A stretch of 64,000 bases of DNA, taken from NCBI RefSeq assembly GCF_910592395.1, contig NC_088320.1, positions 8,122,001 to 8,186,000 of the forward strand, in the 5' to 3' direction. The notes under the pieces are model-generated. The model made no database searches, had not been told where the DNA came from, and worked only from the letters and a program-made list of their open reading frames with translations. Of the stretch, positions 2,771-57,812 are shown in pieces. Source of the DNA: Lineus longissimus (Eukaryota > Nemertea > Pilidiophora > Heteronemertea > Lineidae). How positions within the stretch are numbered: position 1 is the stretch's first letter; each line of letters begins with the position of its first letter. The translations under genes were made by a program, and so were the position numbers.

Positions 2771-3395
2771 AAAACAACAACCACTAGAGAATTATTTCAA
2801 TAACAAGCATTAATTAGCACTCCAAGTAATTGATTAAAACAAAATTATCATAAAGTGAACCCATTCAATAAGCTCAATTAGCATTGAAGAAGTGAAAAAT
2901 TTAAAAAATCAGCAAAACTCAGATAAAATTTTGTGATTGTACCTATTTTACCTAGTTTCTCTTTTTTGTGTACCCAGGGTTATATCTAGGCCGTTTTGGA
3001 ATGGCGCTGCGCCATGCCCCCTTTCAGCCCCGCCATGCTGCCCCCTTGATCTCAAATCCCGCCAATACTGCCCTTTTTTGACGCCAATGTTCCCCCAGTT
3101 AATCCGCCAAGCCCGTTATTATCTTCAACAAATGATCGCCATGCCTTATCTTCAAGCCGCCATGTGCCGTCGTCTATAATTTATGCAGTTACCGCGAGCG
3201 CGCAATCCAATCCGCCAATCCGAGCCTCAAGCTAGCGATGGGTCTACCTCACCAACAGCCGTCGCCAACAGAACGTCTACCTGTATATCCATCTGCACAT
3301 TATTCATCACTGAACGCGAGGTCGTCACACCAATGCCACGTGCAAGAGGACGAAGGGTGGCGCAGACTGGTGGTAGTTGAAGAAACTATTAAATC
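2771..3395. other. Flank upstream of hAT relic, no gene seen
   Basis: AT-rich to 2930, then a stretch (3000-3180) rich in repeated gccatgccc/ccgccaa words. Short open frames have no recognisable domain. It may hold the 5' end and promoter of the hAT element that starts coding at 3396. Confidence 0.35.
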
Positions 3396-6237
3396 ATGCC
3401 GGGCAAAAAGAGGCGGGCGAAGGAGAAGGAGGCAAAGTTGGCTCAGTTGGCGGCCAAATGTCCTCGGATAGAGGTTTTATTTGGGTAAATAAAACAGAAA
3501 TAATCTTTATCAAATGAATAATAGTGAAATTAAGCATTGTTGTGCCGATATATTGCAATGTTTTGTTCTTCAGCGGCGGTTGCATGCGCCGATCGTGATG
3601 GTGGGCAGGGCTGCAGTCACGGCCACGTGCTTTGGCATTGATAGAGTTAGATCAGTCCTACGTTTGTGCCGTGCATGTATATCTTCCGGGTATATCTGGG
3701 GTATATCTTCTTTGCCATTCTTGTACAAATCCCTCTGCAACTGCGAGTGCAAGTTCACTGAACGGGCTGCTGGCAATGCCATATCAGATTATGTGACTAC
3801 ATTCTTCGAATTATTTTTTCTTTCCAAGCACAAAGGAGAAACCACCACCACCACCTGAGCCTGCCTCTAACACTTCTGAGGAGGAAGAAGCATCTGTAGT
3901 GTTACCCCCACATTATACACCAATTAGTGATGACAGTGGTGATGAACATAGTGACCCAGGTAATTATGTTTAAGAAAATGACGTTATTCAGTTGTGTTAT
4001 TTCAAGTTTAGGTCTTAGAAATCAAAACTGTTGACTGGAATTGTTCTTTGTAAACCACTTATGTCATGAAATGAAAAAGATATATTGATTCTTTAGCACT
4101 TTCCAAAAGTGTTCAGTTTAAAAACCCTGGTTTTCTCTCCAAAAACTCATATTTTAAAAAGAATCTCTAATGAAATTTTCGACAAACTAATTGTCTTACA
4201 TTTTCCAGATACTGAACCAGCAGCAGCTGATCTTGAAGCGACACCAGGACCTAGTCAGGAGAAAGCATGCAACGCCAAACATTCAGAAGGGTTCAACATG
4301 GTTTAATATCCACCCTAGCCTGAGGAACTGGTTGATACACTAGCATGGTGGTGAAGATGGAAGTCATTTCTTCTGTAAAGTGTGTAAAAACATAAAGTAA
4401 AGGCACTGAATGGCAGTGTCGTGTGGACTGAAAAGCCATTCCGAACTGCCCGGTTGGATGCTGTGAGGGCCCATGAGACCAGTAGACAACACACTGAGGC
4501 ACTGAAAAACGAAGCAGATGCCTCTACTGGAACTGCTCTTCAGACTTTAACAGTCAATGATCGCCCAATCAGACAGGGGGTTAACGACCTGTTCAGAATT
4601 CTGAAGTGCATTTGTTTCAATGACATGCCTCTGTCAAAGTTTGGTTCAATGGTCGAACTGTCTATATCTGTAGGAGCCCCCCGTATACCACTGCTGCAAA
4701 AAGGCAAAAATGCAACCTACACCAGTGAAAGTACAATGATTGAATTGTTGGAGATATTGGCCAGTGAAGTTGAGGAGAGCCTGCTTGAGGACATTCAAAA
4801 AAGTCCATTTTTTCACTGATGATGGATGAAACATGCGATGTTGCAGTGAAGAAGAATTTAGCTTTGGCATGTAGATATTTTGACACTGAAGAGGGCATGG
4901 TACAAAATGCATTTGTGCAGGATATGTTTGTCCCTGATGGTTCGGCAGATACGATTTATGAGGCAGTCGTGAAGACAGTGAATGAAAAGGAACTTGATTG
5001 TAACAAGCTTGGTGGAGTGGGCACTGATGGTGCCTCTGTCATGACTGGTCGGGTGAATGGTGTCGTTACAAAAATGAAGGCTTTAGAGCCAAACATCATT
5101 GCAGTTCATTGTGTTAATCATAGGCTTGCCCTTGCAAGCAAGGACAGCTTTGGACAGATGCCAGTTCTTGTCAATTTAGAAGAAACATTGGAGGCCCTCT
5201 TTAAGTACTATAACTACAGTTCTAAGAAAAAAGGTTCATTGGAACAGGTAGGCTAAATACAGTAAATCCGATCGCCTAAGCCAGAGTCGCTAAGTCAGAT
5301 TTTGGCCTTATAGAATACTTTTTAGTATGTATTTTATAAAGCAGATAATGTGTATTGTATCTCAGATCAGATAAATTACATGTAAAATTCTCTGGTCTAC
5401 AGAATCGATCTTAAGCAATTCAGGTGGTGGTAATCTCATTTTCTAATCACGTCCTTGTCCTTTCTTTCAGTTGCAGACTTTACTTACTTCAGAGGAAAGA
5501 GGACGAGCTGTGACAATCAAGCATGCAGCCCATACTAGGTGGCTGTCACATGATGCAGCTGTAGATAGTGTGAGAAAGGCATATGATGCCATCCTTGTTG
5601 ACCTTGAAAGTGAGGTGGTAAAGCCAACCACTGGAGAAGCTGGGGCCAAGGCTGGTGGTCTGAAAAAGCGTATGATGCAGTACAACACACTGGCTTGCAT
5701 TTTGCTGTTGGCTGACGTGCTTCCAAGACTGGCCCAACTTAGTCTGCATTTTCAGAAGGAAAAGGTACTAGTAGGACACAGTGCTAATAGTTTTTTGAGT
5801 CTATCCCCATCCATGATGTAATTTTTGACTAGAGATCAGTTGGTATTAATTCTCTTAACAGTGAAGTCACCACTGAGATTTATGCAGTGTCATCTTCATA
5901 ATTTGTGCAGTGCATATTTAGTTCATGGTTCTCCTGAACTTTGAAGCTTTTATTCAATTTCAGGTTGATTTGACAATGATTGACAGTATGTTGTCATCAA
6001 CACTGAAGTCAATTGGGGACATGAAAGAAACCCCAGGGCGACATCTCGCAAAGTTGGAGACACTTGCTGAGAAATACAAAATAACCAAGTCGCATAATCA
6101 GAACTTTGAACTGACTAAGTGCAGATACATAGATGCTACAATTGCCTCAATAAATAAACGCCTGTGTTGTCCGTGCCATGGGTGTGTTGGATTTTTCAAA
6201 TGTGAGTGGTCAGAGAGTACTGCTTCCTAGCCTCTAT

Positions 6238-16647: not shown

Positions 16648-18743
16648 ATGGCGCGTCCGATAAAACGCTTCCTACTGGATCAGGTTATTGATTCATTTAT
16701 TGCCGATAATGATTCTGACGATGACAATTTTGATTTGGGAGATAACGGCAGAGCTTCTGAAGATGAGGAAGGCGCAGATTCTGACTGGGAATATGACTGT
16801 CCAGTGCGTATTGATGCGGTTTCGAGTCCGCGGGCTGATCCGGCCACAGCAAGTACTCCGTTAGCAAGTACAAGTTCTGTACTGCCTGCAGGTAGGAAAC
16901 GTCCACGACCTATATCTAGCTCTGAAAGGGATGTCGAACTACACAATAGTGATACTGATGATTATCAGCCTCCCACTTTGTCAGATTATGTTAGCAGTGC
17001 AGATAATTCTGATGACGGGGCACGTGACCATGCTGTTCACGCGCCCGCACAACCTTGTGATGCTCCACAACGGCGCGGTAGGCCACGAGCACGTGGTGTT
17101 GGTGTGGTCCGTGGACGTGGTCGTGGGCGTGGGAGAGCTCCGAGGAGGGATGTGTCTCCAGCCTGGGTGTGGGAACAGTGTAATTGAGATGAGTTTGACC
17201 CAGTTGACATTCCTTTTACGGGTCAGGAGCGCCTAAAAGTACGCATTGGGCCCAATCCGAATCCAATTGACTTTTTCAATCTCTATATCACAGATGAACT
17301 GATTGCACACTTTGTTACTGAGACTAATAGATTTGCACAACAGTACATGGTGGCTAAAGGTGATCAACTCAAGGATAACTCACGTGCAAAAGCATGGAAA
17401 CCGACTACACCTGAGGAAATGAACACGTTTCTTGGGTTGATTCTTCTTATGGGCGTTGTTCTCAAACCGCGTATCCACATGTATTGGGCAACTGACGAAT
17501 TGGTGTCCACCCCAATATTCAGCCAGGCAATGACAAGGGACCGATTTCAGTTGATTCTGAAATTTTTCCACTTTGCCAATAATGAAGATCGTGATTTCGA
17601 TGCCGAAGACCCAGAGAGGGACAGGCTTCACAAGGTCGGACCTGTGATTGAAATGATTCGTACCCGCATGGCTCAGGTCTATTCCCCAGGGAAAAATCTG
17701 AGCATAGATGAGTCACTTGTCTTATACAAGGGGAGACTGGCTTTCAGACAATTCATTCGTACGAAGAGAGCACGCTTTGGCATAAAACTTTACGAACTGT
17801 GTACTTCGTCTGGTATCACCCTTGACTTTATGGTGTATTGTGGCAAGGGTATGATTGGAGATGATGACCCAAACGATAATATGTCTATCACAGAACGCAT
17901 CCCAGCAAACCTGATGATTCCGTACTTAGGAGAAGGACATTGCCTTTTCATTGATAACTTTTATACGTCACCCAAACTGGCAGATCATCTTCTGAGGAAT
18001 GGTACATATGTGTGTGGGACCATCAATCCCAAACGCAAGAATTTCTCTCGTGAATGTGCTAATGCTAACCTTGATAAGGGCGGAGCTGCTTTCTATAAAC
18101 AGAACGACAAACATCTCCTAGGTGTAAAATTTCGGGCGATTCAAAACAAAGCGAACAATCAGCCAAAACTTGTTTGCATGTTGTCTACTGCCCACAGGAC
18201 TCTCATTGAGGACAGTGGGAAAAAGGATAGGCAAGGTGTTGATATCAGGAAGCCATCGTGCATCTTGTCATACAATAAACAGATGGGGGGAGTTGATAGG
18301 TTGACCAGCAGCTGCATGGAATTCACACCCTCCGCAAGACCTATAAGTGGTACAGAAAGCTGGTTTTTCGCCTTGCTATGCAATCGGCCCTGAATGCTCA
18401 CAAGGTCTATCAGTTCCATACTGGGAATGCAAATGTAGATTTCTTGGGGTTTTTGCACAGTGTCATTGGGTCCCTTCTCACATCAAGTCCTCGCCTCAAT
18501 CAAGAGGTGGTAGCTCATGGGGCAGTAGCACGGCTTACTGGTAGGCACTGGCCAGAGAAGAAGAAAGCAACGGCAGGAGCAACTAAAACGAGGCCATGCA
18601 AAATGTGCAGAGTTTGTTACGCAAAGGGCCGGAAGTCACCAACAGGGGCGAAACTAAGATCCGTTTGGGTTTGTAAAACCTGTGTTTCGGAGCCAGGTCT
18701 TCATGTTGATGAAGGTTGTTTTGAAGCATTCCATACAAAACTT
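16648..18743 (+). pseudogene. piggyBac transposase, three lesions
   Basis: This is a DDE-type cut-and-paste transposase acting at TTAA sites. The N-terminus is acidic (DNDSDDDNFDLGDNGRASEDEE), then RGRGRGRGRAPRR. The core has WKPTTPEEMNTFLGLILLMG, the first catalytic region (NLSIDESLVLYKGR), the second (GHCLFIDNFYTSPKLADHLL) and MGGVDRL. The C-terminal Cys-rich finger (CKMCRVCYAKGRK, WVCKTCV, CFEAFHTK) is present. Lesions are an in-frame TGA at 17185-17187, a 1-nt deletion near 18303 that shifts frame after GGVDRLT, and interruption after codon CTT by the EnSpm element. The true end (...DYSK and stop) lies at 37110-37125. Everything else is conserved, so it died recently. Confidence 0.92.
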
Positions 18744-37107: not shown

Positions 37108-40063
37108 TTGACTATTCAAAATGAATTTTGAATTCAAGTTTTGTATGGAAAACCTAACTTCAACATCAGGTCACTGATTGACGTCATTGATGTCAAGAAG
37201 ACGTCAAATAGTTACAAACATTCTGCCTCTGTATTATAAAATGTTTATAATGAGTAAAAACAATCATTTTCAAGCTGAGAACTATAATATCAAAACTTTG
37301 TACATTTGAGGTAATTTGTGAAATTTTTGACAATTTTCGTTTTTCAAATAAAATCATTTTTCAAAAACAAAAATCAGAATTTGTGAAATTTTTTTTCAGG
37401 AATGTGGAGGAAACATACTACTGCAAATAATATATAAAAAACAGAAATAAAAACCAACCAGAAATACAGTTTCAGTAATGTTTTATTGGAAATTTTCACA
37501 TGAAAATAAAATCCAAGATGGCCGCCAACAGGTCACGTGACCATTGGACGCCCCAAAAATAAAAACAAATATTTTATTCTGAAAGGCCATCAAGTTCCCT
37601 CCAAAATGACATTTATTTTTCTTTTATATCTTTCTTGGTTTTGGAACAATAATTTATTTCCTAAAAGCTTCAAAAAAGCCTAATTTGGCTCCAGCACTAT
37701 ATAGCAAGGCCACAATACACATTGATTCACCGTGCATCATTGCGTCACGTCACGATTTCAAGGCAGGTCACTAACTTCAAATGTAAATAGCTCTAAAACT
37801 GTTTCGTGCATCGTAATAAAAATTATACCATCGTAATCTCAGTTTTTCTCTTCATATTGTCCTTTCATACTGATAAAATCCTCAAATTATTACTGTGCCG
37901 ATTTGCGAACGGAACTTTGGATTGTGTGTAAAATCGGCGACGTGAAAGTTGTGCGGGAATGTCGCGGCTTTTCGAGGGCCGTTCGTTTGATATCCTGTGA
38001 TCCTTCAAAAAGCCGCGGGCCTTCTCCTTATTTGGCTGAGATGAAATTTAAGGATGCAGAAGAAGGGACCAATGAGAACCCCCAGAAAAAGTACCAAGTC
38101 ATTCCGTTCCCGATTTTTTGAGATTTTGACACGGTAAGTTTAGTCTTCATTTCCATCTCCGTGTTTCGAAAACAACGAAATATCTGCTCAAAGCACATCG
38201 ACACGCTAACACAACAACTCACCGTGATTACGCCTATGTAAATTATATAAACATTGCACACGTTTTAGATCCGCGGATATTGATTTTGTTGGCGAATACC
38301 CTCCAAAAAACTGAAAGATTTTGACGTAAATGTTACTTGTTTGTGATGACGGCGAACGATCCTGCCGCCATGATGAAATTCCTGGAAAAACCTGTCAATA
38401 AGCTCTGACGCTGCACACGTCACGGCTGGCTCGCCGTTAATTGGTGGATGAGCGAGATGGCGCGACGTTCATTGGCCGACAATTTTACGTCACCGATCGC
38501 GTAAACATAAACCCACGTGGGTTGGGTGATCGCACGTGGGATGATCTTGCTGGGTAGAACCTCTTATTACTTCGTTATTATTGAATTAATTCACGATCAT
38601 TAATGATATAGTGTGATCATATGAAAATACCACGGCTTCACTGCTCACACATGTTGCATTATTTTCAATATTTCGGCACTGTTGCTGTCAAAAATATCCT
38701 GGTTTTAAACTGTCGCTGTTAAAGCTCACTAAATATCCATGACGTCAGATACATGCATAAACAGCGGGGCCCGGATCATGTATATTCAGAAGACGTCAAT
38801 GTTTTCATTATATTTATGTGAGCTGGGTTTGGAAGGACTGTTTACAAACATCAGCTTATTGGGAATGATGGTTACTCTTTGCCTGAAGACCTACTGACGA
38901 AACTAAGACCCCCACTACAAAAACAAGACCCAACATTAAAACAAAGACCATCTCACTTCTGCATCAAGACCCCATGTCTAAACTTAAGACCATAAAGACT
39001 ATACCTAGAAGACTAAACTTGATATTGAGCTGCATGCTCCCCGGTGGCCAGGGAATGGCCACAGGGGGTTACTCAATGAAATAAAAACAAACCATCCACT
39101 TACTTGTACTTGATACTGTTTAGTCTCAATGTTCAGAAGACTATGAAAGTTTACCAAATAATATTGAATTCTTATAATCAAATTTTGTTCTTCTCAGGAA
39201 CTGTAGTCAAGATGATAACACAAGAGACAAGAGGGGCAGCCGAAGGGAGCAATGATGGGATGGATGATGAGTGTGATGTCATGGCGTTGGTTGACTTTCC
39301 TACCAATTCCAGAAGAAAAGAGGAATTCACCTGGCCAAGCGGCGAAGACCAGCAGAATGTTATGCCAAAGTTCATCCTCTCCAGCAGCATTGAAGTTACC
39401 ACCACTACAGGAAGGATCTGGTCGATCGCCAAAAAAACAATGGATGATATTTCTGATATCTATTCACTTTTCAAAAAACTGTACTTTGACAACACTGATT
39501 TAGACTGATGCTAGTACAAAGAATTCCAATTCTCATTCATGTGACTCAAAGTTAATTCTCACGTTCTCCTCAATAGTCAGTTGCGCTTTTAAATCTTACC
39601 AACAGCTTTTTCAAATCAAGATGTCTGCAACAGTTTATGTTACATTAATTTGTTGCTGTAGAATAATAGCTGCAGTTCAGTCCGAGAACTTTATTGCCAG
39701 TGTTCTAAGCTGCATTTTGATATATCACATGCCATATTTCAAAATTGGGCAAAGATTCTCGAAAAAATATATACACGGCGGCCATTTTGAATTTTCAATC
39801 TTGCAACAAAATGGCCGCCATCGTAGAAAAATATTCAGTGTTCTATGAACCTCTCTTTAAGGATTGAATGCACAATACTGAAATTGTGTTTTCTTTTTTT
39901 GAATTACTAATTAATTGATTCGTTTTAAACAATGGATGTAAGAGGTTTTCTGGTGCTGGCGGCCATTTTGAATCAAGATGGCCACCATTTTAGGGATATT
40001 TTTCGATTTTTCGCTAGATTTGGGAAGGTTTGACCAAAGTTCAATGATACCTGACTATTTTTT
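37108..40063 (+). other. piggyBac 3' region with one possible exon
   Basis: The first codons (TTGACTATTCAAAATGA) finish the piggyBac transposase. The rest is AT-rich 3' sequence. An acceptor-like ttcttctcag at 39188-39197 opens a frame to 39508 (ALVDFPTNSRRKEEFTW, IWSIAKKTMDDISDIYSLFK) with no match I recognise. Near 39770-39990 the words ggcggccattttgaat and aaaatggccgcc occur in both orientations, a common animal repeat motif. Confidence 0.45.
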
Positions 40064-40388
40064 GGGTGTCTATAAACCGAAGATCGAAGACCGAAGATCG
40101 AAGATAGAAGACCCACCCAAAACTATAAAACGAAGATCCCCCAACTATAAAAGGAAGACCCTAATGTCAACTATAAAACGAAGATCCCCCCATCTATAAA
40201 AGGAAGACCCTAATGTCAACTATAAAACGAAGATCCCCCAACTATAAAAGGAAGACCCTGATGTCAACTATAAAACGAAGATCCCCCAACTATAAAAGGA
40301 AGACCCTAATGTCAACTATAAAACGAAGATCCCCCCATCTATAAAAGGAAGACCATAATGGTTTTCATTCTCATGTTCAGTTACTGCA
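40064..40388 (+). repeat. Left inverted repeat with minisatellite
   Basis: A ~65-bp unique outer part with gaagatcgaagaccg words precedes about five ~49-bp units of actataaaacgaagatcccc / actataaaaggaagaccc. It pairs with 45473-46392. Confidence 0.9.
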
Positions 40389-40807
40389 CAGTTTGTTTTC
40401 ATTTTCATTTGTTTTCATTTTCGGTCCATGCTACATTAATGATTTGAGAAAGTAAGTGTACCGGGTACTACACCAGTCGTGTCTAGCCTTAGCAGCTTAG
40501 TGGCACAGTTTACATAAGGCGGGGAGCCCCGTACCTGTTACCATGCAGCCGTGCTCCAATATGACCTAGTTTCTCACTGTACTCATCATAGCCAGCCCTC
40601 AGCTTCGTCCAGAAGCTGTTTCTATGTGCATGTGTGTGTATCGTCATAGGCTCCCAGCAGGTTAGTTGATCACACGGCCAATATGGAATTGGTCCTACAT
40701 ACAGAAAAACAATCCAAACGTGCACGTGCAGGCGATGTCTACATGGCACTTGCCTGCTAGTTTTCATTGACATTGATTTTCAGGATTCCCTTTATCAGTT
40801 TTCAAAC

Positions 40808-43224
40808 ATGGCTTTTAAATTACCAAAATTGAATGTGTCAGGTAAACAGAAGTGCGAGACATTTTTCAAGAAATTCAAATGGGCCGATTTGAGTGTCGTA
40901 GAAGAGATCGGGCAAGGAGCTTACGGGACTGTGTTTCGGGCAAAATGTACGGGTAATACTGTTTCATATGACAACCCCGTCGTCGTTAAAAAGGTTCACG
41001 GCGACACAGTCAATGTTGAACGCAACTTTTTAAAAGAGTGTCACCTGCTTAATGATATGAGCCACCGAAATGTAACTTCGTTTATCGCAATGTGTGAGAT
41101 GCCTTTCGCGATTATGAGCGAATATGAATGCTTTGACTTTGCGCCGTTTGGCATTGATAAATCGGTAAATAATCTTTCCCAGTGGTTGTGCGTGATTGAC
41201 TCTTTGGATGACATCAATCCATTATTAAATTTGTTTACTCTCGTTGGCAGTGATGCCATTAGTGGCCTCGCGTATCTTCACGGTAAAGGCGTTGCCCACC
41301 GCGACATTAAGCCAGCGAATATATTGATATCCAACAAGAACTACAGTTCACTGGAACCATCCAGTAAAAGATTCATGGAAGCATACGAGTTCTCTCCATT
41401 ATTATGTAAGCTAACTGATTTCGGGGAAAGTCGTTCAGACATTGTCCAAACCAACACGGTGATGAACGCCGGAGCGACAACTAATGTACAGAGGGGGTCA
41501 CTGCCATTCATGGCTCCCGAAATTCTAGTGGAAGAGCTTCGTGGGACCAATGCCTCACTGGAAGATCTCAAGAAAATGGATATATGGGCAATGGGGATGA
41601 CTTTGTACACTCTCATTAATCCCGACCAGCCCTATCCATTTAGCTTGGAATCTAAAGAGGAAAATATGAGAGGTCAAGACCTGTACAAGAACCTTGTGGC
41701 TTCAAAGCTGAGGGTCGGGCACCGGCCTCGTCCTTCACCAAAATTCGAATTCTTGCAGAGGACCAAGTTGGCAAATTTGTATCGGATATACAAACAGTTC
41801 ACCTTGCAAGACCCATATGCAAGGCCCTCCGCTGAAACATTGAAGCAAGCTTTTTTCATTGTTGACGACGTGGAGTTTATGTCTCTCGGAGTAAGCCAAG
41901 CTACCCCACAAGAGAACCATGATCGCATCATAGCATCAGCACTGACCCGTGGAGAAAATGTGGCACTTGGCACAACCCTGGCAAACGACGGTACAAATGC
42001 CTGTACCTTCTTAGCTTTGGGGATTGCTTCCGACGTACAGAAGAAAGGGCCCGAATTTGTATGGCAGGACGTACCTTTATTAGCTGTGAAGTACATCAAT
42101 ATTACTTTGGAAGTGATCAATGACATCCGAGAACACGACCGTACGTATGACACTTTGGAAGCAATGGTAGTGATGAATGAATTGCCAGGGCCATTGTGCT
42201 CACCTCATGTGGAGGAAAGATGGATAAAGAGCATGGTATTGTGTCATGTAGTGTTAGGTTTGATGTAGGTCCAAGCAATTATAATTTCCCCAAAATGGCC
42301 AATTTACAGTACATTCGACCTCTGTGACCTTGAAAAGTAGGTCAAATCAAAGAAGACCCGGGTGACACATTGAATGGTTGTTAGAATTAGATGTACCTAT
42401 GATATAAAATTGGTGCCAATCGGGCAAGTCATTACTAGGAATAATGGCATTTTGAAGAATTTAGGATTTGGCCCCCTCCCTGGATGCCAAACGGCAAATC
42501 AGATCGCACCAAACTTCGGTACCTGAGATCACCTGACCAAGGGGTACATGTGTACTTAATTTGTGATCAATAGTCATTGCAGTTAAGAAACGTGCCATAG
42601 TTACGGCCTGACGGCGAATTTACGCCATTTGACCTCTGTGACCTTGACAAGAAGGTCAAATTAAAAACCTGTGTGACATATACTGTATGGTGGTTAGATG
42701 TACCCATGATATCAAATTAGTGGCAATCGGGCAAGAAGTTAAGGAATAATCACATTTTTAAGGTTTTTGGATTTTGCCACCTGGTGGTCAAGTGGTGAAT
42801 CATATTGGACCAAACTTCGGTCCCTGAGATCACCTGACTAAGGGGTAAATGTGTACCAAATTTGGTATCAATAGTCATTGCAGTTTAGAAACGTGCCATC
42901 GTTACATCCTAATGGCCAATTTACACCATTTGACCTCTGTGACCTTGAAAAGGAGGTCAAATCAAAAACCCGGAGGATATATGATGCACCTTTGCTAGAA
43001 GTACCTACCATATTTTTTTCAAAATTTCCCGACTACTATTAAGGGAGATATTGCATATTTTCACTTTTAACGTTTGGCCCCCTGGTGGCCAAACCATGAA
43101 ACGAATCGGACCGAAACTTGGTCTCCAAGGTGTCATTACATAAGGGTACATGTGTACCAAGTTTCAACTCAATAGCTCTAACAGTTACGAAACGTGCCCT
43201 GCTAACGGACGACGGACGACGACG

Positions 43225-43277
<53 letters not shown>

Positions 43278-43703
43278 ACGACGGACGCCACGGTATGGGA
43301 TAAGCTCACCTCTGCTAAGAGGTGAGCTAAAAAGGCTGGTCTTCTCCCCCCGTCCTTGGAAATATTCGAAGAAACACCATCCGGTAGTCCTGCCAATTCG
43401 GACAGGGGTGTTGAGGAGTTAGAGAAAGGTCTTCTATTTGGTTCCACCCAATCGGATTCGGAGTGTTATTGGGTGTACACGTGTGTCCCGTATTCATTTC
43501 TAATAGGGTTTAGGAGGGACTGCTTCTTTGTGGTGGACACTCACCCACAGGCAGATGGTAATGGTGTACTTGCTGTATTCGGAGAGAGTGGGATGTTGGA
43601 ACGCAAAGAAATCGTCAGGAACGTGTGTGGTTGGATTGTAGATCGTGTTGGAGAAGCAGGCAAGAACCATGGCCAATCCCTATCGCGCATAGACGACGGG
43701 TAA
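40808..43703 (+). pseudogene. Intronless protein kinase fused to a cysteine-protease-like domain, interrupted
   Basis: 40808-42268 is 486 codons without introns. Residues about 30-355 form a complete Ser/Thr-type kinase: GQGAYGTVFRA loop, VVVKKV lysine, FLKECHLL glutamate, VAHRDIKPANIL catalytic loop, TDFGES, MAPEIL and DIWAMGMTLYTL. All catalytic residues are present. From residue about 395 another domain begins (LANDGTNACTFLALGIA). Its NACTFLAL cysteine resembles the nucleophile region of papain-fold proteases. The frame stops at 42268 where a GACCTT-type repeat lies (to 43330). After it a frame from about 43331 to 43703 gives CYWVYTCVPYSFLIGF and CFFVVDTHPQADGNGVLAVF, a plausible His/Asp half of the same domain. 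So the gene was probably a kinase-protease fusion split by a repeat. Function and protease assignment are inference. Confidence 0.75.
42280..43330 (+). repeat. GACCTT-type repeat, three tandem segments with (ACG)n end
   Basis: Three diverged ~300-bp segments each contain tttgacctctgtgaccttga, aaaggaggtcaaatc, ggtacatgtgtaccaa and aaacgtgcc. The last runs into (ACG)n (43206-43285) and a terminal hairpin AGCTCACCTCT/AGAGGTGAGCT (43303-43328) followed by aaaaa. It sits within the kinase-protease gene. The same family is at 2481-2770. Confidence 0.8.
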
Positions 43704-45472
43704 GTCAAGATTTTATACTTTGGGCATAGGGGAGACATATTTTACACATATTGAAAAGAATGAAACTTAAATGGCCTATTTGTGATACCATTGGGCCTTC
43801 GCTATAGAAAACACACTTTTGGATCGTGTACCTTGATTTGTCCATGGAGGTATTACTAATAAATATAATACCTCCATGATTTGTCAAACTAAATACGTTT
43901 AAATGTCTTGTCGAAGTTGGCGAACTTTATCCCGCATTGGGGAAAACGGGTAAAACTTATCAATTAAGGGTAAAAGTTGTAAATCGACCATTCAAAGCAA
44001 TGAGGGATATAATGTTTTGCTATACAAAACAAAAACACTTAAAACCCTTTCCCTTGCTGACCTTTTGTCAAATTGATTTGCATGTATGGGCCTCAGAGGG
44101 TTCAGAAATGTACTAGTATAATATTCCTGTTTCTCTTTCAAAAAGCTGTTTGCCTTTTCACTGGTTCCAGCAGCATTGGTTTCAGTCTATCTCTCATTGT
44201 ATCTAATTGTTTGACTTGTTCTTACTGCAACTACAAAAATTATGCGTAGTACATTTCATGGATCTCATTTTTTTCGGGGTATGATTCATGTGGTACAAGT
44301 GCACTGCGCGTATAGTCTGTATAGTATGTTTGCTTCTATTCTACCGTGTCTATAGGAAATATTTGCTTCTCTGTAACAAGTGTAATGGTAAACATTAGTG
44401 TACCGGTAGCAAGTTTTTCAAAAGTTGTAGATATGAACTTGGATGACAGTAACTCATGGACGAAATTTCGGCATCTTTTCCTGTTTTGGCAACCTTAGAC
44501 TAATGGCTACTAAGTATTTCTAGCGATGAGACAACATATATAACAGTATAATAATCTTCACGTGATCTTTATGTATTTCTCAGGGTCACTGCTTAGTCTC
44601 TCTCAGGGTTGCTGAGGTAAAAGTCGTCTATTTTTTATCAAGTCCAGCTATTTTTTTTGTCAAGTCCAGCATAATTGATGGATATCTCATGGCAAATGGT
44701 CATCTGACAAGTTTGACCATTTCCTAATGAAAAAATACCAGTACCAAGGTGAGCACTATCTTGGTTCATGAAAAAAATTGATCTCCGTACGGTCTCTTCC
44801 AGTCACAGGTAATCATATCAATCGAATACACTTATAAGAACTAGTCCATTAATGTAAATTTAATACATGTGTGCATAAAATTAATGAGAAGCCTCCACTT
44901 CTGTACTCAATCATTCAGATATGATTTTACTGCTGATTTCTTGTTGTTGAGTGAATAAAGTTTGATCATCATGTTTTACACAAACAAGTTGTTTTCTGTT
45001 TTGAAAAAACTGACAATTCCTTGGAGTGAGCCAAGTGATAATTACATGTGTCGGCTCCATGGAATCCTGGAGGTACATGTATACAAAAAGTGATTTACCT
45101 CCATAATGGAATTTACAGATAAGAGAAAAAAAAAGTTTTCAAGACTTGGGAGACCTTCGGAACCCCTGCCAGATTGCCAGAACACTTGTTTTCTCCGAGC
45201 AGCGCATCGACCCATAGCTACCCCCCCCCCCCCCCAACAGTTTCAATGTTTCCCTGCTCTGGGTGACTTGGTAATTTAGAATCTCGTCCCCAGGGGTTAG
45301 GCTCCACCATCATGGGTCGAGACTGGCAGGTCGGTCGCCAACTCCTAAATGCAGTGTTAGGAAAATCCGGAATTTACCTGAATGATCTGATCTCCTATGT
45401 CACTACGCCGCACTCAGGCTAGCTTGCTTGTTGAAATAAAGATGCTCAGTCACGTGTTATGACGTGCAAGTC
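43704..45472. other. Foldback element interior, no gene seen
   Basis: AT-rich, with inverted tacctccat/atggaggt words near 43840-43880 and a C13-type homopolymer at 45221-45234. I see no transposase or further gene. Confidence 0.5.
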
Positions 45473-46392
45473 TGCAGTAACTGAACTTGAGGGTCTAAAA
45501 CCACCAGGGTCTTCCTTTTATAGATGGGGGGATCTTCGTTTTATAGTTGACATTAGGGTCTTCCTTTTCTAGTTGGGGGGATCTTCGTTTTATAGTTGAC
45601 ATTAGGGTCTTCCTTTTATAGATTGGGGGATCTTCGTTTTATAGTTGACATTAGGGTCTTCCTTTTATAGTTGGGGGGATCTTCGTTTTATAGTTGACAT
45701 CAGGGTCTTCCTTTTATAGTTGGGGGATCTTCGTTTTATAGTTGACATTAGGGTCTTCCTTTTATAGTTGGGGGGATCTTCGTTTTATAGTTGACATCAG
45801 GGTCTTCCTTTTATAGTTGGGGGGATCTTCGTTTTATAGTTGACATTAGGGTCTTCCTTTTATAGTTGGGGGGATCTTCGTTTTATAGTTGACATTAGGG
45901 TCTTCCTTTTATAGTTGGGGGATCTTCGTTTTATAGTTGACATCAGGGTCTTCCTTTTATAGTTGGGGGGATCTTCGTTTTATAGTTGACATTAGGGTCT
46001 TCCTTTTATAGATGGGGGGATCTTCGTTTTATAGTTGACATCAGGGTCTTCCTTTTATAGTTGGGGGGATCTTCGTTTTATAGTTGACATTAGGGTCTTC
46101 CTTTTCTAGTTGGGGGGATCTTCGTTTTATAGTTGACATTAGGGTCTTCCTTTTATAGTTGGGGGATCTTCGTTTTATAGTTGACATTAGGGTCTTCCTT
46201 TTATAGTTGGGGGGATCTTCGTTTTATAGTTGACATCAGGGTCTTCCTTTTATAGTTGGGGGGATCTTCGTTTTATAGTTGACATCAGGGTCTTCCTTTT
46301 ATAGTTGGGGGGATCTTCGTTTTATAGTTTTGGGGGGTCTTCCATCTTCGATCTTCGGTCTTCGGTCTTTGGTCTTCGGTTTATAGACACCC
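45473..46392 (-). repeat. Right inverted repeat with expanded minisatellite
   Basis: About seventeen ~49-bp units (cttttatagttgggggg / atcttcgttttatagttgac) alternate between 'cattaggg' and 'catcaggg' variants, inverse to the left arm. It ends in the outer tcttcggtttatagacaccc. Confidence 0.9.
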
Positions 46393-46907
46393 CTATTTTT
46401 TGCTGAATTAACATCTTGGCAATCAACTTAACACCATTTCTCTCTTTTGTAATGAATCTGTGGTATCGAATTAACAAAATTTATGCAAATTACGTGTCCT
46501 CTCCTGATTGGCCGATCTCAAATCTGAGCCCGCGAACGCGTTTCTCGTCAAATTTTAACATAGATCAGTAATTTTTATCAAAATTCAGTAAATATTAGTA
46601 AGTTAATCTGCTTTTCAGTTGATTTTCTTATGTTAAATGCAAGAAATCCCTCGAAATCATTAACAGGGTCCCCCTCAGCCAATCTAAGGCTAATCCCTTA
46701 GACCTCATAAGTTGAACCGGACCAAAACAAGGCCTGTTTCGGCACCTTTAATTTGCTATATCTTGAGAACCAGTCACCCGATTTTCAAAATATAGACAGT
46801 TATATGCTTGTTTTAAAGGGTACCATCAGACTGCTGTGAAAAAAAAACAGTCTTTCAACATTCAAAATTTAAGTGGCCTTGCTACACTATAGGGTAAAAA
46901 AGGCTTA
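46393..46907. other. piggyBac right subterminal region
   Basis: After the second CTATTTTTT, AT-rich sequence ends near 46870-46900 in aagtggccttgctacactata, which resembles an inverted stretch at 37690-37715 (actatatagcaaggccac). It is part of the piggyBac 3' end. Confidence 0.5.
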
Positions 46908-54845: not shown

Positions 54846-57812
54846 GATGCACTGGAAAACCAGTTACCCGAATCATTACGTGAAATGTTTAGACGTGGAA
54901 CTTCATATCTCTCCGGGGATCAGCCGCAGAAATTGAAGGATTTGTTGGTGAATCATTTGCCGTTATTTTCCAAATCAAAGTTAGACATAGGAACCGCAAC
55001 AGGAATCAAACACCGAATAGATACGGGAGATGCCCCACCACTCAGCCAACCATTGAGACAATTACCAATACATCAAGAAGAAGAAGCAGACAAACAAGTC
55101 CGAGAGATGTTGCAGGCCGGGGTTATTGAGAAGTCAATCAGCCCCTGGAGCTGTGGCGTCGTCTTGGTCGAAAAAAAGGACTCAACGCAAAGATTTTGTA
55201 TTGATTTTCGACGTTTGAACCAGGTCACAATCAAAACGAATAGTGGTCTTCAAAGAACCGACAGTCAGTTAGACAGCTTACAAGGGTCAAAATGGTTTTG
55301 CGCCCTTGACATTTCCAGTGCGTACTGGAACGTGGAGATGGAAGAATCTTCAAAAGAAAAGACAGCTTTCTCGACCAGGCTGGGTCATTTCCAGTTCTGC
55401 CGCATGCTGTTTGGACTTGTGAATGCTGGCGCCATCTTCTCCCGCCTGATGCAAAACATACTCGGTGGACTAGAATGGGAGGCGTGCTTAGTTTACCTCG
55501 ACGACATAATTACCATGGGAAAAGATTTCGAAGACGCGTTTGAAAATTTGTCCAAAATTTTCACCAAGTTAGAAGCAGCAGGCATTAAACTAAAACCAAA
55601 GAAATGTAATCTGTTCCAGAAGTCAGTTGAATTTCTGGGTCACCTGGTGACTGAAGACGGGATCGGTACAGCCCCTGGCAAGATTGAAACAGTGAAACAA
55701 TGGCCAACTCCGGAGTGCCTCACGGATGTAAAGTCCTTCCTTGGGCTGGTCACCTACTACAAAGCCTTTATTCCATCCTTCGGAGACATAGCCAAACCGT
55801 TATACCGTTTATCCACCAACGCTAAGGCCTTTGAATGGGACGAAGATTGTGAACAGTCGTTCCAGACTTTAAAGAACCTGTTGATATCCGCACCAATTTT
55901 GGGGTACCCAAATAGACACGGAAAATTCATATTGGACACTGACGCGTCCGGTTACGCTATCGGGGCCGTGTTAAACCAAATGCAAGACGGCCAGGAACGA
56001 GTTATTTCCTATGGGAGTAAAACGTTGTCCCCCGCCGAAAAGAATTACTGTGTTACTCGAAGGGAGCTGTTGGCTGTGGTTACCTTTGTTAAAAAGTACT
56101 GGCACTATCTGTACGGCAAGAAATTCACAATCAGAAGAGATCACAGCTGTCTACAGTGGCTGATGAATTTCAAAGAACCCGAGGGCCAGCTTGCGCGCTG
56201 GATAGAATTTCTCAGCACTTTCGACTTTGAAATTGTCCATAGGAAAGGGAAACTTCACGGCAACGCGGATGCCATGTCCAGAGTACCATGTGGATACTGT
56301 TCCAGCAAACGGAATAATTCTCCCTGCGTGCGACAAGTCCAAACAGCCACAGAAAAACAGTCCAATGACGTAGAAACTCAAACGGAACACTCCGGACCCC
56401 TGGAAGATGCTGCGCCTATTGTGATCAAGTGGATACCCAAGCACTGGTATCAAAAACCCCGACCAATTAGGAAGAAACGAAAGCCTCAAAGGAAGACAGG
56501 TGGTGCGGTTCGCCAGACACAAATCGGCAGGGCCGATAACTGGTCAGATCAGGTCATGAGCGACGCACAAAAGTTAGACCCCGAATTCAGATGGATTTAT
56601 GACTTAAAGGAACAACATCAAGAACGACCAGCCTGGGAAACAGTCTCCTTGCATAACGAAAGTGATAAACATTATTGGTCTATGTGGGATCAGTTACGAT
56701 TCAAAAATGGAGTACTGTGTCAGAGATACGAGGCTGACGATGGAAAATCCATGAAGTTGAAACCCTTGTTGCCTGCCAAGTTCCGCGAAGAACTGTTCCA
56801 TCATCTACACAGCGCGAAGACAGCAGCTCACCTCGGGATCCAGAAGACTTATGAAAAAATGAAGGCCCGGTTTTATTGGAAAAACATGAAGGACACCGTA
56901 TCTGAATTGTGCCAAAAATGCGACAAGTGCGAGTCAAGAAAGGCCCCACCTCATAAAAACAGAGGACAACTTCAGACCTACCTGGTAGGCTTACCCATGG
57001 AACGAATAAGTACCGATTTACTAGGCCCCCTACCCATAACCGCGAGACGTAACAAATACATCCTATTGGTCGGGGATCATTTCACGAAGTGGATAGAGGG
57101 ATACGCCCTGCCGAACCAAGAAGCCGTAACTGTGGCTAAGAAAATTGTGAGCGAGTTTGTGTGTTGCTATGGTTCATTTCGTCAACTTCATTCTGATCAG
57201 GGCACAAACTACGAGTCTCATCTAATCAAGGAGGTGTGCAAAATTCTGGATATCCAAAAGACGAGAACAACTCCAGTCCACCCACAGTCTGACGGCATGA
57301 TCGAGAGGCATAACCGGACCTTACCGAATTCATTATCGGTCATGGTGAAGAAAAACCAGAAGGATTGGGACGAACAACTACCTTTTGCGATGATGGCACA
57401 TCGATCCGCCGTCCATAGCACCACCCCCGAGACCCCTTACTACATGATGTTCGGTAGAGAAATGGCCGTACCGTTAGACGTTATTTACGGCGACTTAAAC
57501 AATGAAGAGTTGGTAACTCAGGACTATGCGGTGGAGTTAAAGAAAAGACTCACCCAAGCGTACAGCAAGGCCAGAGAACAAATCAAGAAACAACATCGGA
57601 GACAGAAACGAACATACGACCAAAGACAGCATGGTGCACCGTTTGAGAAAGGAGATTTCGTCTGGGTATATTATCCCCGCCACAGAAAAGGACTGGCAAC
57701 TAAACTTTCATGTAACTGGGTGGGACCGTATCTCGTATTGAAGAGACTATCCGACACAGTATACCGAGTCCAGCAATTTAAATCGGTAACTAATCAATCA
57801 TTTTTTTTATAG
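54846..57812 (+). CDS. Ty3/Gypsy pol (RT, RNase H, integrase), 5'-truncated
   Basis: The open frame enters from the truncation point at about 54845. The RT has VLVEKKDSTQRFCIDFRRLN, DISSAYWNVEMEESSKEKTA and the YLDD active site (ACLVYLDDIITMG). RNase H has FILDTDASGYAIGAVL, TRRELLAVV and RRDHSCLQWL. The integrase zinc finger (HLGIQKTYEKMKARFYW, CQKCDKC) and triad (ISTDLLGPLP, LHSDQGTNYES, DGMIERHNRTL) are complete. A GPY-type end (CNWVGPYLVLKRL) closes it. There is no internal stop in 2.97 kb, so the copy is young. Gag, protease and the 5' LTR are missing. The stop is one base before the next ORF's ATG. Confidence 0.93.
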   Translation, partial: DALENQLPESLREMFRRGTSYLSGDQPQKLKDLLVNHLPLFSKSKLDIGTATGIKHRIDTGDAPPLSQPLRQLPIHQEEEADKQVREMLQAGVIEKSISPWSCGVVLVEKKDSTQRFCIDFRRLNQVTIKTNSGLQRTDSQLDSLQGSKWFCALDISSAYWNVEMEESSKEKTAFSTRLGHFQFCRMLFGLVNAGAIFSRLMQNILGGLEWEACLVYLDDIITMGKDFEDAFENLSKIFTKLEAAGIKLKPKKCNLFQKSVEFLGHLVTEDGIGTAPGKIETVKQWPTPECLTDVKSFLGLVTYYKAFIPSFGDIAKPLYRLSTNAKAFEWDEDCEQSFQTLKNLLISAPILGYPNRHGKFILDTDASGYAIGAVLNQMQDGQERVISYGSKTLSPAEKNYCVTRRELLAVVTFVKKYWHYLYGKKFTIRRDHSCLQWLMNFKEPEGQLARWIEFLSTFDFEIVHRKGKLHGNADAMSRVPCGYCSSKRNNSPCVRQVQTATEKQSNDVETQTEHSGPLEDAAPIVIKWIPKHWYQKPRPIRKKRKPQRKTGGAVRQTQIGRADNWSDQVMSDAQKLDPEFRWIYDLKEQHQERPAWETVSLHNESDKHYWSMWDQLRFKNGVLCQRYEADDGKSMKLKPLLPAKFREELFHHLHSAKTAAHLGIQKTYEKMKARFYWKNMKDTVSELCQKCDKCESRKAPPHKNRGQLQTYLVGLPMERISTDLLGPLPITARRNKYILLVGDHFTKWIEGYALPNQEAVTVAKKIVSEFVCCYGSFRQLHSDQGTNYESHLIKEVCKILDIQKTRTTPVHPQSDGMIERHNRTLPNSLSVMVKKNQKDWDEQLPFAMMAHRSAVHSTTPETPYYMMFGREMAVPLDVIYGDLNNEELVTQDYAVELKKRLTQAYSKAREQIKKQHRRQKRTYDQRQHGAPFEKGDFVWVYYPRHRKGLATKLSCNWVGPYLVLKRLSDTVYRVQQFKSVTNQSFFL

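Follow-up and report, generated by a model that had tools for sequence, protein, structure and literature searches.

A foldback-armed unit with a kinase-protease gene

The window analysed here is the whole 64,000-bp stretch C13:8122001-8186000 of the assembly of the bootlace worm Lineus longissimus (Nemertea), and the assembly (391,118,348 bases) was the genome searched. Sequence analysis of the window delimited a foldback-armed mobile unit at positions 40064-46392 with GGGTGTCTATAAACC ends. The only gene recognised in its interior is an intronless open reading frame (ORF) encoding a protein kinase fused to a cysteine protease of the VTD type. Both termini open with GGGTGTCTATAAACCGAAGA, which is followed by 7-bp repeats and then by a minisatellite arm, and a 19-bp terminal sequence at 40065-40083 recurs inverted at 46373-46391 with zero mismatches. 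The two arms are opposed and differ in length (Table 1). Among the 192 inverted pairs detected in the unit, the 25 longest are 95-99% complementary, and a perfect 9-bp duplication, CTATTTTTT, stands at both edges. The unit has the long inverted tandem-repeat arms of Foldback elements, as do two families of relatives described below, and the terminal inverted repeats of Mutator-like elements (MULEs).

The kinase ORF (40808-42268) contains the HRDxKxxN, DFG, and APE motifs and matches Pfam Pkinase (E=6.9e-31), although its frame reaches 42268 only by reading into a nested insert, its own part ending at 42181. By sequence, ULK1 is the closest solved chain (E=1.2e-9), and kinases fill all 50 Foldseek matches listed for a model of P0006, a full-length homologue. 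The product is identified as a protein kinase by its full set of catalytic motifs and its fold.

The protease-like part is divided in the window copy. An NDGTNAC motif lies late in the kinase ORF and a DTH motif in a second piece, the two being separated by a nested repeat of ~1.15 kb (about 42182-43328). This repeat is absent at the corresponding place in three other copies (C3, C8, and C11), and the C3 copy holds the same gene uninterrupted as one intact ORF of 579 amino acids (aa). The fused domain has the VTD / M48-type papain-like fold. In an alignment of 32 sequences (A2), Q10, C46, and D180 are invariant and H182 is conserved in at least 90%, giving the arrangement of Cys, Asp-x-His, and an upstream Gln that presumably belongs to the VTD catalytic set.

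Among proteins, the kinase ORF is matched best by P0001, annotated in L. longissimus as 'serine/threonine-protein kinase ULK1-like', with 100% identity over 98% of the query. P0001 and a second NCBI model of this species, P0002, are named as host genes ('ULK1-like', LOC135484643) and differ in their C-terminal parts; their sequences correspond to the copies in the window (C13) and on C3. A search for relatives on viral contigs gave 10 pattern matches, none of which was confirmed by tblastn.

The nested repeat itself contains a (GAC)n tract and a pair of 301-bp units that have diverged. It alone was matched (query residues 421 and up) by 58 of the 88 rows of the kinase search and is thus common in the genome. 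Its junction shows an AA/AAAAA ambiguity only, with no clear duplication.

Near-identical copies lie in different target sites

The kinase was found at 99% identity at three further sites (C11, C3, and C8), with the kinase domain open in all four copies. Three substitutions separate the window kinase from that of C11 and four from that of C3, differences too sparse for a dN/dS ratio; between families, synonymous sites are saturated. The C11 and C8 copies have both ends and other 9-bp duplications, and the C3 copy has one end. With the first G read as the first base of the element, perfect duplications flank the window (CTATTTTTT), C11 (GCAATTTGT), and C8 (ACTTTATCC) copies as well as two internally deleted copies, L019 (GTGTCAAGTT) and L023 (ATATATGTA). 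Since the duplications are perfect and mutually different in every window-type unit examined that has both ends (5/5), they are more than chance; at 9 or 10 bp, they also lie within the range of about 9-11 bp that marks MULEs. Across all independent two-ended units examined, with four C14 copies that share one flank entered once, 10 of 11 have a duplication of 8-10 bp (one of 8 bp, one of low complexity) and one, a 15.4-kb copy on C1, has none.

The copies differ in their interiors. In C11, all sequence from 43461 into the right array is missing, including part of the protease, and the C8 copy lacks 43806-44646, with its frame broken within the second domain. The C3 copy has additional sequence before the kinase (L003 about 3117-3948). 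Its similarity to the element stops at 44062, and neither a right end nor any other element match was found in the 3.3 kb downstream. The right end of a further copy, at C1:13.37 Mb, was not found within the 3.0 kb examined.

Four kinase-fragment copies on C14 (L025, L026, L027, and L028) have the same 10-bp duplication and the same flanks, and their aligned stretches are 93.8-99.5% identical. Their shared duplication and flanks indicate that they spread by duplication of the locus and not by transposition. The L010 kinase remnant on C15 has a foldback arm that directly adjoins a minisatellite of about 41 units of 31 bp (L010 1-1297).

These observations bear out most of a preliminary description of the locus. 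It had delimited a unit by inverted ends, opposed minisatellites, and a perfect 9-bp duplication, which the arms, the 19-bp inverted ends, and CTATTTTTT confirm at 40064-46392. Its assignment to a Foldback/Mutator-style mobile unit is supported by ends, arms, and copies with differing duplications. The intronless, catalytically complete kinase was recovered as described, and the proposed cysteine-protease fusion agrees with the VTD fold and the NDGTNAC and DTH motifs. As a test set beforehand, it had asked whether the kinase recurs between these ends in several copies, each flanked by its own 9-bp duplication; the window, C11, and C8 copies are of this kind.

Divergent kinases share the same ends

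The genome search with the kinase scored 88 of 2450 candidates. After the 58 rows matching only the nested repeat had been dropped, the remainder were grouped into 25 kinase loci. At least one window-type end was found at 15 loci, foldback ends of other sequence at three, and a third family at three, and four were not classed by their ends (C1:11.2 Mb, C1:14.3 Mb, C6:9.0 Mb, and C17:1.7 Mb). The preliminary description had held that a kinase occurring genome-wide without these ends would speak against it. This does not apply to the 15 of 25 loci with a window-type end; it does apply to three, which are themselves foldback elements.

Kinases down to about 40% protein identity (40-46%) sit between ends homologous to those of the window unit. 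In a FastTree phylogeny of 124 kinases over 345 columns, the window, L010, L017, and 15.4-kb-type kinases form one clade with two further proteins (support 0.981), and all four worm kinases of this clade come from units with GGGTGTnTAnAAA ends. The kinases of an 11.5-kb family, which has other ends, and of the third family, whose ends are undefined, fall outside it. This suggests that kinase and ends travel together.

Larger relatives encode kinase, VTD, and a transposase-like protein

Two of the divergent kinases (C1:14195669 and C14:10299301; 46% identity) sit in a repeat of 15.4-16.0 kb. The ends of this 15.4-kb type, GGGTGTATACAAAACCAAGACC, match the window ends at 18-19 of 24 bases, and none of 200,000 random 24-mers from the window reached 18 against the left end (draws inside the element were not scored). 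Between its ends, the C1 copy encodes the kinase and, in an ORF of its own, a VTD (Herpes_teg_N, E=3.8e-4); a 610-aa ORF there matches the MULE transposase domain PF10551 (E=4.3e-4, 21.1 bits). The 610-aa ORF sits in a stretch common to both 15.4-kb-type copies at 99.7% (only the C1 reading was scanned). On C1 (L045, about 14208618), a second left-type terminus starts exactly 9 bp (CTTTCTCTT) past the right end of the 15.4-kb element; its similarity extends only about 210 bp and it may be a fragment.

Kinases on C8, C13, and C6 (41% identity) lie in a second repeat of 11.5 kb (C8) or 11.7 kb (C6). Its ends (GAGGGTTTCTTTTATGCGAG...) have 7-10 of 24 bases in common with those of the window unit and show the same foldback minisatellite style, and the duplications are of 8 bp (C8) and 9 bp (C6). 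The C13 copy of this family (11.07 Mb) shares about 7.2 kb and the right end, and has no left end in the stretch examined. In the C8 copy, the kinase is accompanied by a VTD ORF (E=3.6e-4). A transposase-like ORF of 660 aa is also present there, with MULE-like D, D, and C-x2-H motifs that were seen by eye alone and confirmed by no tool.

The third family (C15, C8, and C20) was read in its C15 copy, the C8 and C20 loci covering the kinase part only. It encodes a kinase, a VTD ORF 56% identical to the VTD of the 11.5-kb family, and both ends of that family's transposase-like protein, the middle of which is missing; the tandem arrays of the C15 copy are visible on one side only. The 610-aa and 660-aa transposase ORFs align only in their C-terminal region, and that region is common to all three families. 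No FLYWCH match was found in these two ORFs, which may lack upstream exons. In the window copy, we found neither an ORF of at least 120 aa at 43704-45505 nor a tblastn match of the relatives' transposase ORFs at E<=1e-3.

Together, the copies, the ends, and the larger relatives suggest that the window unit is probably a non-autonomous member of a Foldback-ended, presumably Mutator-like lineage with kinase and VTD as long-standing accessory genes. Because the larger relatives combine the kinase with a similar protease and a transposase-like gene, the kinase appears to be an old part of the transposon lineage and not a stray passenger. The simplest account is an old lineage regularly equipped with both enzymes, of which the window copy, with its kinase-VTD fusion, represents one shortened, non-autonomous form among several.

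Several results weigh against this interpretation. The MULE match of the 610-aa ORF falls under the curated Pfam cut-off of 27.6 bits, the 660-aa ORF has no convincing Pfam match, and no element that bears a transposase between ends identical to those of the window unit was seen, no genome-wide census of these ends having been made. As for the insertion sites, the C1 15.4-kb copy has no duplication and the 9-bp duplication of the C14 copy is of low complexity. Compared alone with Herpes_teg_N, the fused domain reaches no better than E=0.19, and among 27 full-length homologues, two match at E<=1, the best at 0.061. The kinase tree is midpoint-rooted without a cellular kinase outgroup and includes six worm kinases only, two of them from other families. 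In it, the window kinase groups with kinases that are not fused.

Coordinates of the window copy and its neighbours

Table 1 Annotated parts of the foldback unit, by position in the window
Feature	Position	Strand
Left target-site duplication CTATTTTTT	40055..40063	+
Left terminus GGGTGTCTATAAACCGAAGA, then degenerate 7-bp repeats CGAAGAY	40064..40120	+
Left foldback arm, 48-bp minisatellite, 5 copies	40121..40360	+
Kinase-VTD ORF, first part; kinase domain 40895-41851; NDGTNAC motif near 3' end	40808..42181	+
Nested ~1.15-kb repeat splitting the kinase-VTD ORF; 301-bp internal duplication, GAC microsatellite	42182..43328	+
Kinase-VTD ORF, second part: C-terminal half of VTD protease, DTH motif, stop TAA	43329..43703	+
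Internal stretch, no ORF of at least 120 aa	43704..45505	n/a
Right foldback arm, 49-bp minisatellite, 16.9 copies, opposed to left arm	45506..46329	-
Right terminus, inverted GGGTGTCTATAAACCGAAGACC and 7-bp repeats	46330..46392	-
Right target-site duplication CTATTTTTT	46393..46401	+

Elsewhere in the window lie a transposase ORF at 17347-18390 (PF13843, E=1.8e-72), which we take to be of the piggyBac type, and a retroelement pol ORF at 54885-57809 (RVT_1, RNase H, and integrase).

Discussion

Origin of the kinase and affiliation of the elements

The preliminary description regarded the kinase as cargo, a reading under which a Foldback/MULE element would recently have captured a host gene. MULE and Foldback elements do move foreign genes, and no transposase was found in the window copy. 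However, a single recent capture does not explain why homologous ends enclose kinases of 40-46% identity and why those kinases that were tested, four in number, belong to one clade. It likewise leaves unexplained the joint presence of kinase, VTD, and transposase-like ORF in other families, larger elements of the same genome. Cargo, if it means an acquired foreign gene, is therefore not supported, and we consider recent capture unlikely.

Alternatively, the MULE-like ORF could be incidental and the ends those of a different superfamily, Foldback-like ends being present also in Galileo, a P-type element. Foldback-like ends are reported with different transposase classes in the available text of two studies (PMC3169594; PMC3573991), and the low MULE score noted above would fit this reading. 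Yet the duplications measure 9-10 bp, and the MULE-matching ORF belongs to the stretch that the two 15.4-kb-type copies have in common. The order of kinase, VTD, and transposase also recurs across families, with the C-terminal region of the transposase-like proteins retained in all three. We regard such an affiliation as quite improbable.

The window and C8 copies, in which the kinase-VTD gene is the only one recognised between full arms, might instead suggest an autonomous mobile unit of its own kind that needs no DDE transposase. Duplications of 9-10 bp and inverted ends are typical of DDE transposases, however, and larger relatives with homologous ends carry the MULE-like ORF, so that this reading has very little in its favour. 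We give almost no credence to a spread of the kinase loci by segmental duplication in which the inverted arrays were carried along. Such duplication does add copies, as the four near-identical C14 loci with common flanks and 10-bp duplication illustrate, but as the sole cause it is rejected for the window, C11, C8, L019, and L023 sites by their different perfect 9-10 bp duplications and the different bases beyond.

For a MULE-like lineage with accessory kinase and VTD genes, a MULE-type transposase supplied by a larger relative would bind the terminal repeats in trans, excise the element, and reinsert it through a cut staggered by 9-10 bp. Transposition may be aided, or proteins of the element shielded, by the fused kinase-VTD product or, in the larger relatives, by the two proteins encoded separately. 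The VTD would then remove ubiquitin and so stabilise the transposase, and the kinase might phosphorylate the transposase or host repair and signalling proteins. The authors of a study of VTDs in Helitrons suggest, in the text available, that these domains protect transposition proteins from degradation (PMC9741609), and the protective role considered here extends that suggestion as a guess.

Comparison with known elements

In Drosophila and other insects, Phantom and Foldback (FB/NOF) elements have tandem-repeat inverted arms, 9-bp duplications, and a link to MULE transposases, as here. To our knowledge, neither carries a kinase or VTD, and we know of no accessory kinase or protease in Muta1 of Aedes aegypti. 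Muta1 is described, in the part of the source available, as an active animal MULE (PMC5225508).

The Foldback/Mutator element Tm1 of root-knot nematodes is likewise described, in the available text, with composite foldback-like ends of variable length and duplications of 8-10 bp, mostly 9; it has members with and without transposase and a resident gene, Cg-1 (PMC3169594). As far as this text goes, Tm1 resembles the window lineage in its foldback-like ends, its 8-10 bp duplications, and the coexistence of transposase-bearing and transposase-less members. Its transposase is of the Phantom subclass with a FLYWCH finger, a match to which was not found in the two ORFs scanned here. Tm1 differs in its elements of 1080 and 2593 bp and has no kinase or VTD, the words 'kinase' and 'protease' having no occurrence in the available text (PMC3169594).

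The Helitron VTDs offer a second comparison. According to the main text available, they are VTD domains of animal transposons with a catalytic Cys and Asp-x-His (PMC9741609), and both the carriage by an animal transposon and the residues recur in the present elements. There, the domains occur in rolling-circle elements and in cnidarian fusions; here, the elements have foldback ends and duplications of 8-10 bp, and a kinase is the fusion partner. That main text contains none of the words 'kinase', 'mutator', and 'MULE' (PMC9741609). A limited literature search, judged by titles and the beginnings of abstracts, gave no published kinase in a Mutator/Foldback-type animal element.

Significance

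As far as the available source on Helitrons shows (PMC9741609), our results extend the transposon carriers of VTDs from Helitrons to foldback-ended, probably Mutator-like elements. Tentatively, and with slightly less than even confidence, we propose that an old animal MULE lineage with foldback ends has kept kinase and VTD deubiquitinase as a conserved accessory module, long inherited and serving to manage the host during transposition, and that many 'ULK-like' or orphan invertebrate kinases (corals, nemerteans) are genes of such elements. As a warning for annotation, some annotated invertebrate kinase 'genes', such as the ULK1-like P0001 in L. longissimus, are transposon genes. The finding also bears on the route by which VTD-type enzymes entered herpesviruses and animal genes. 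If the proposal is true, a kinase and a deubiquitinase as standing equipment would point to DDE elements that actively control host signalling, as large viruses do.

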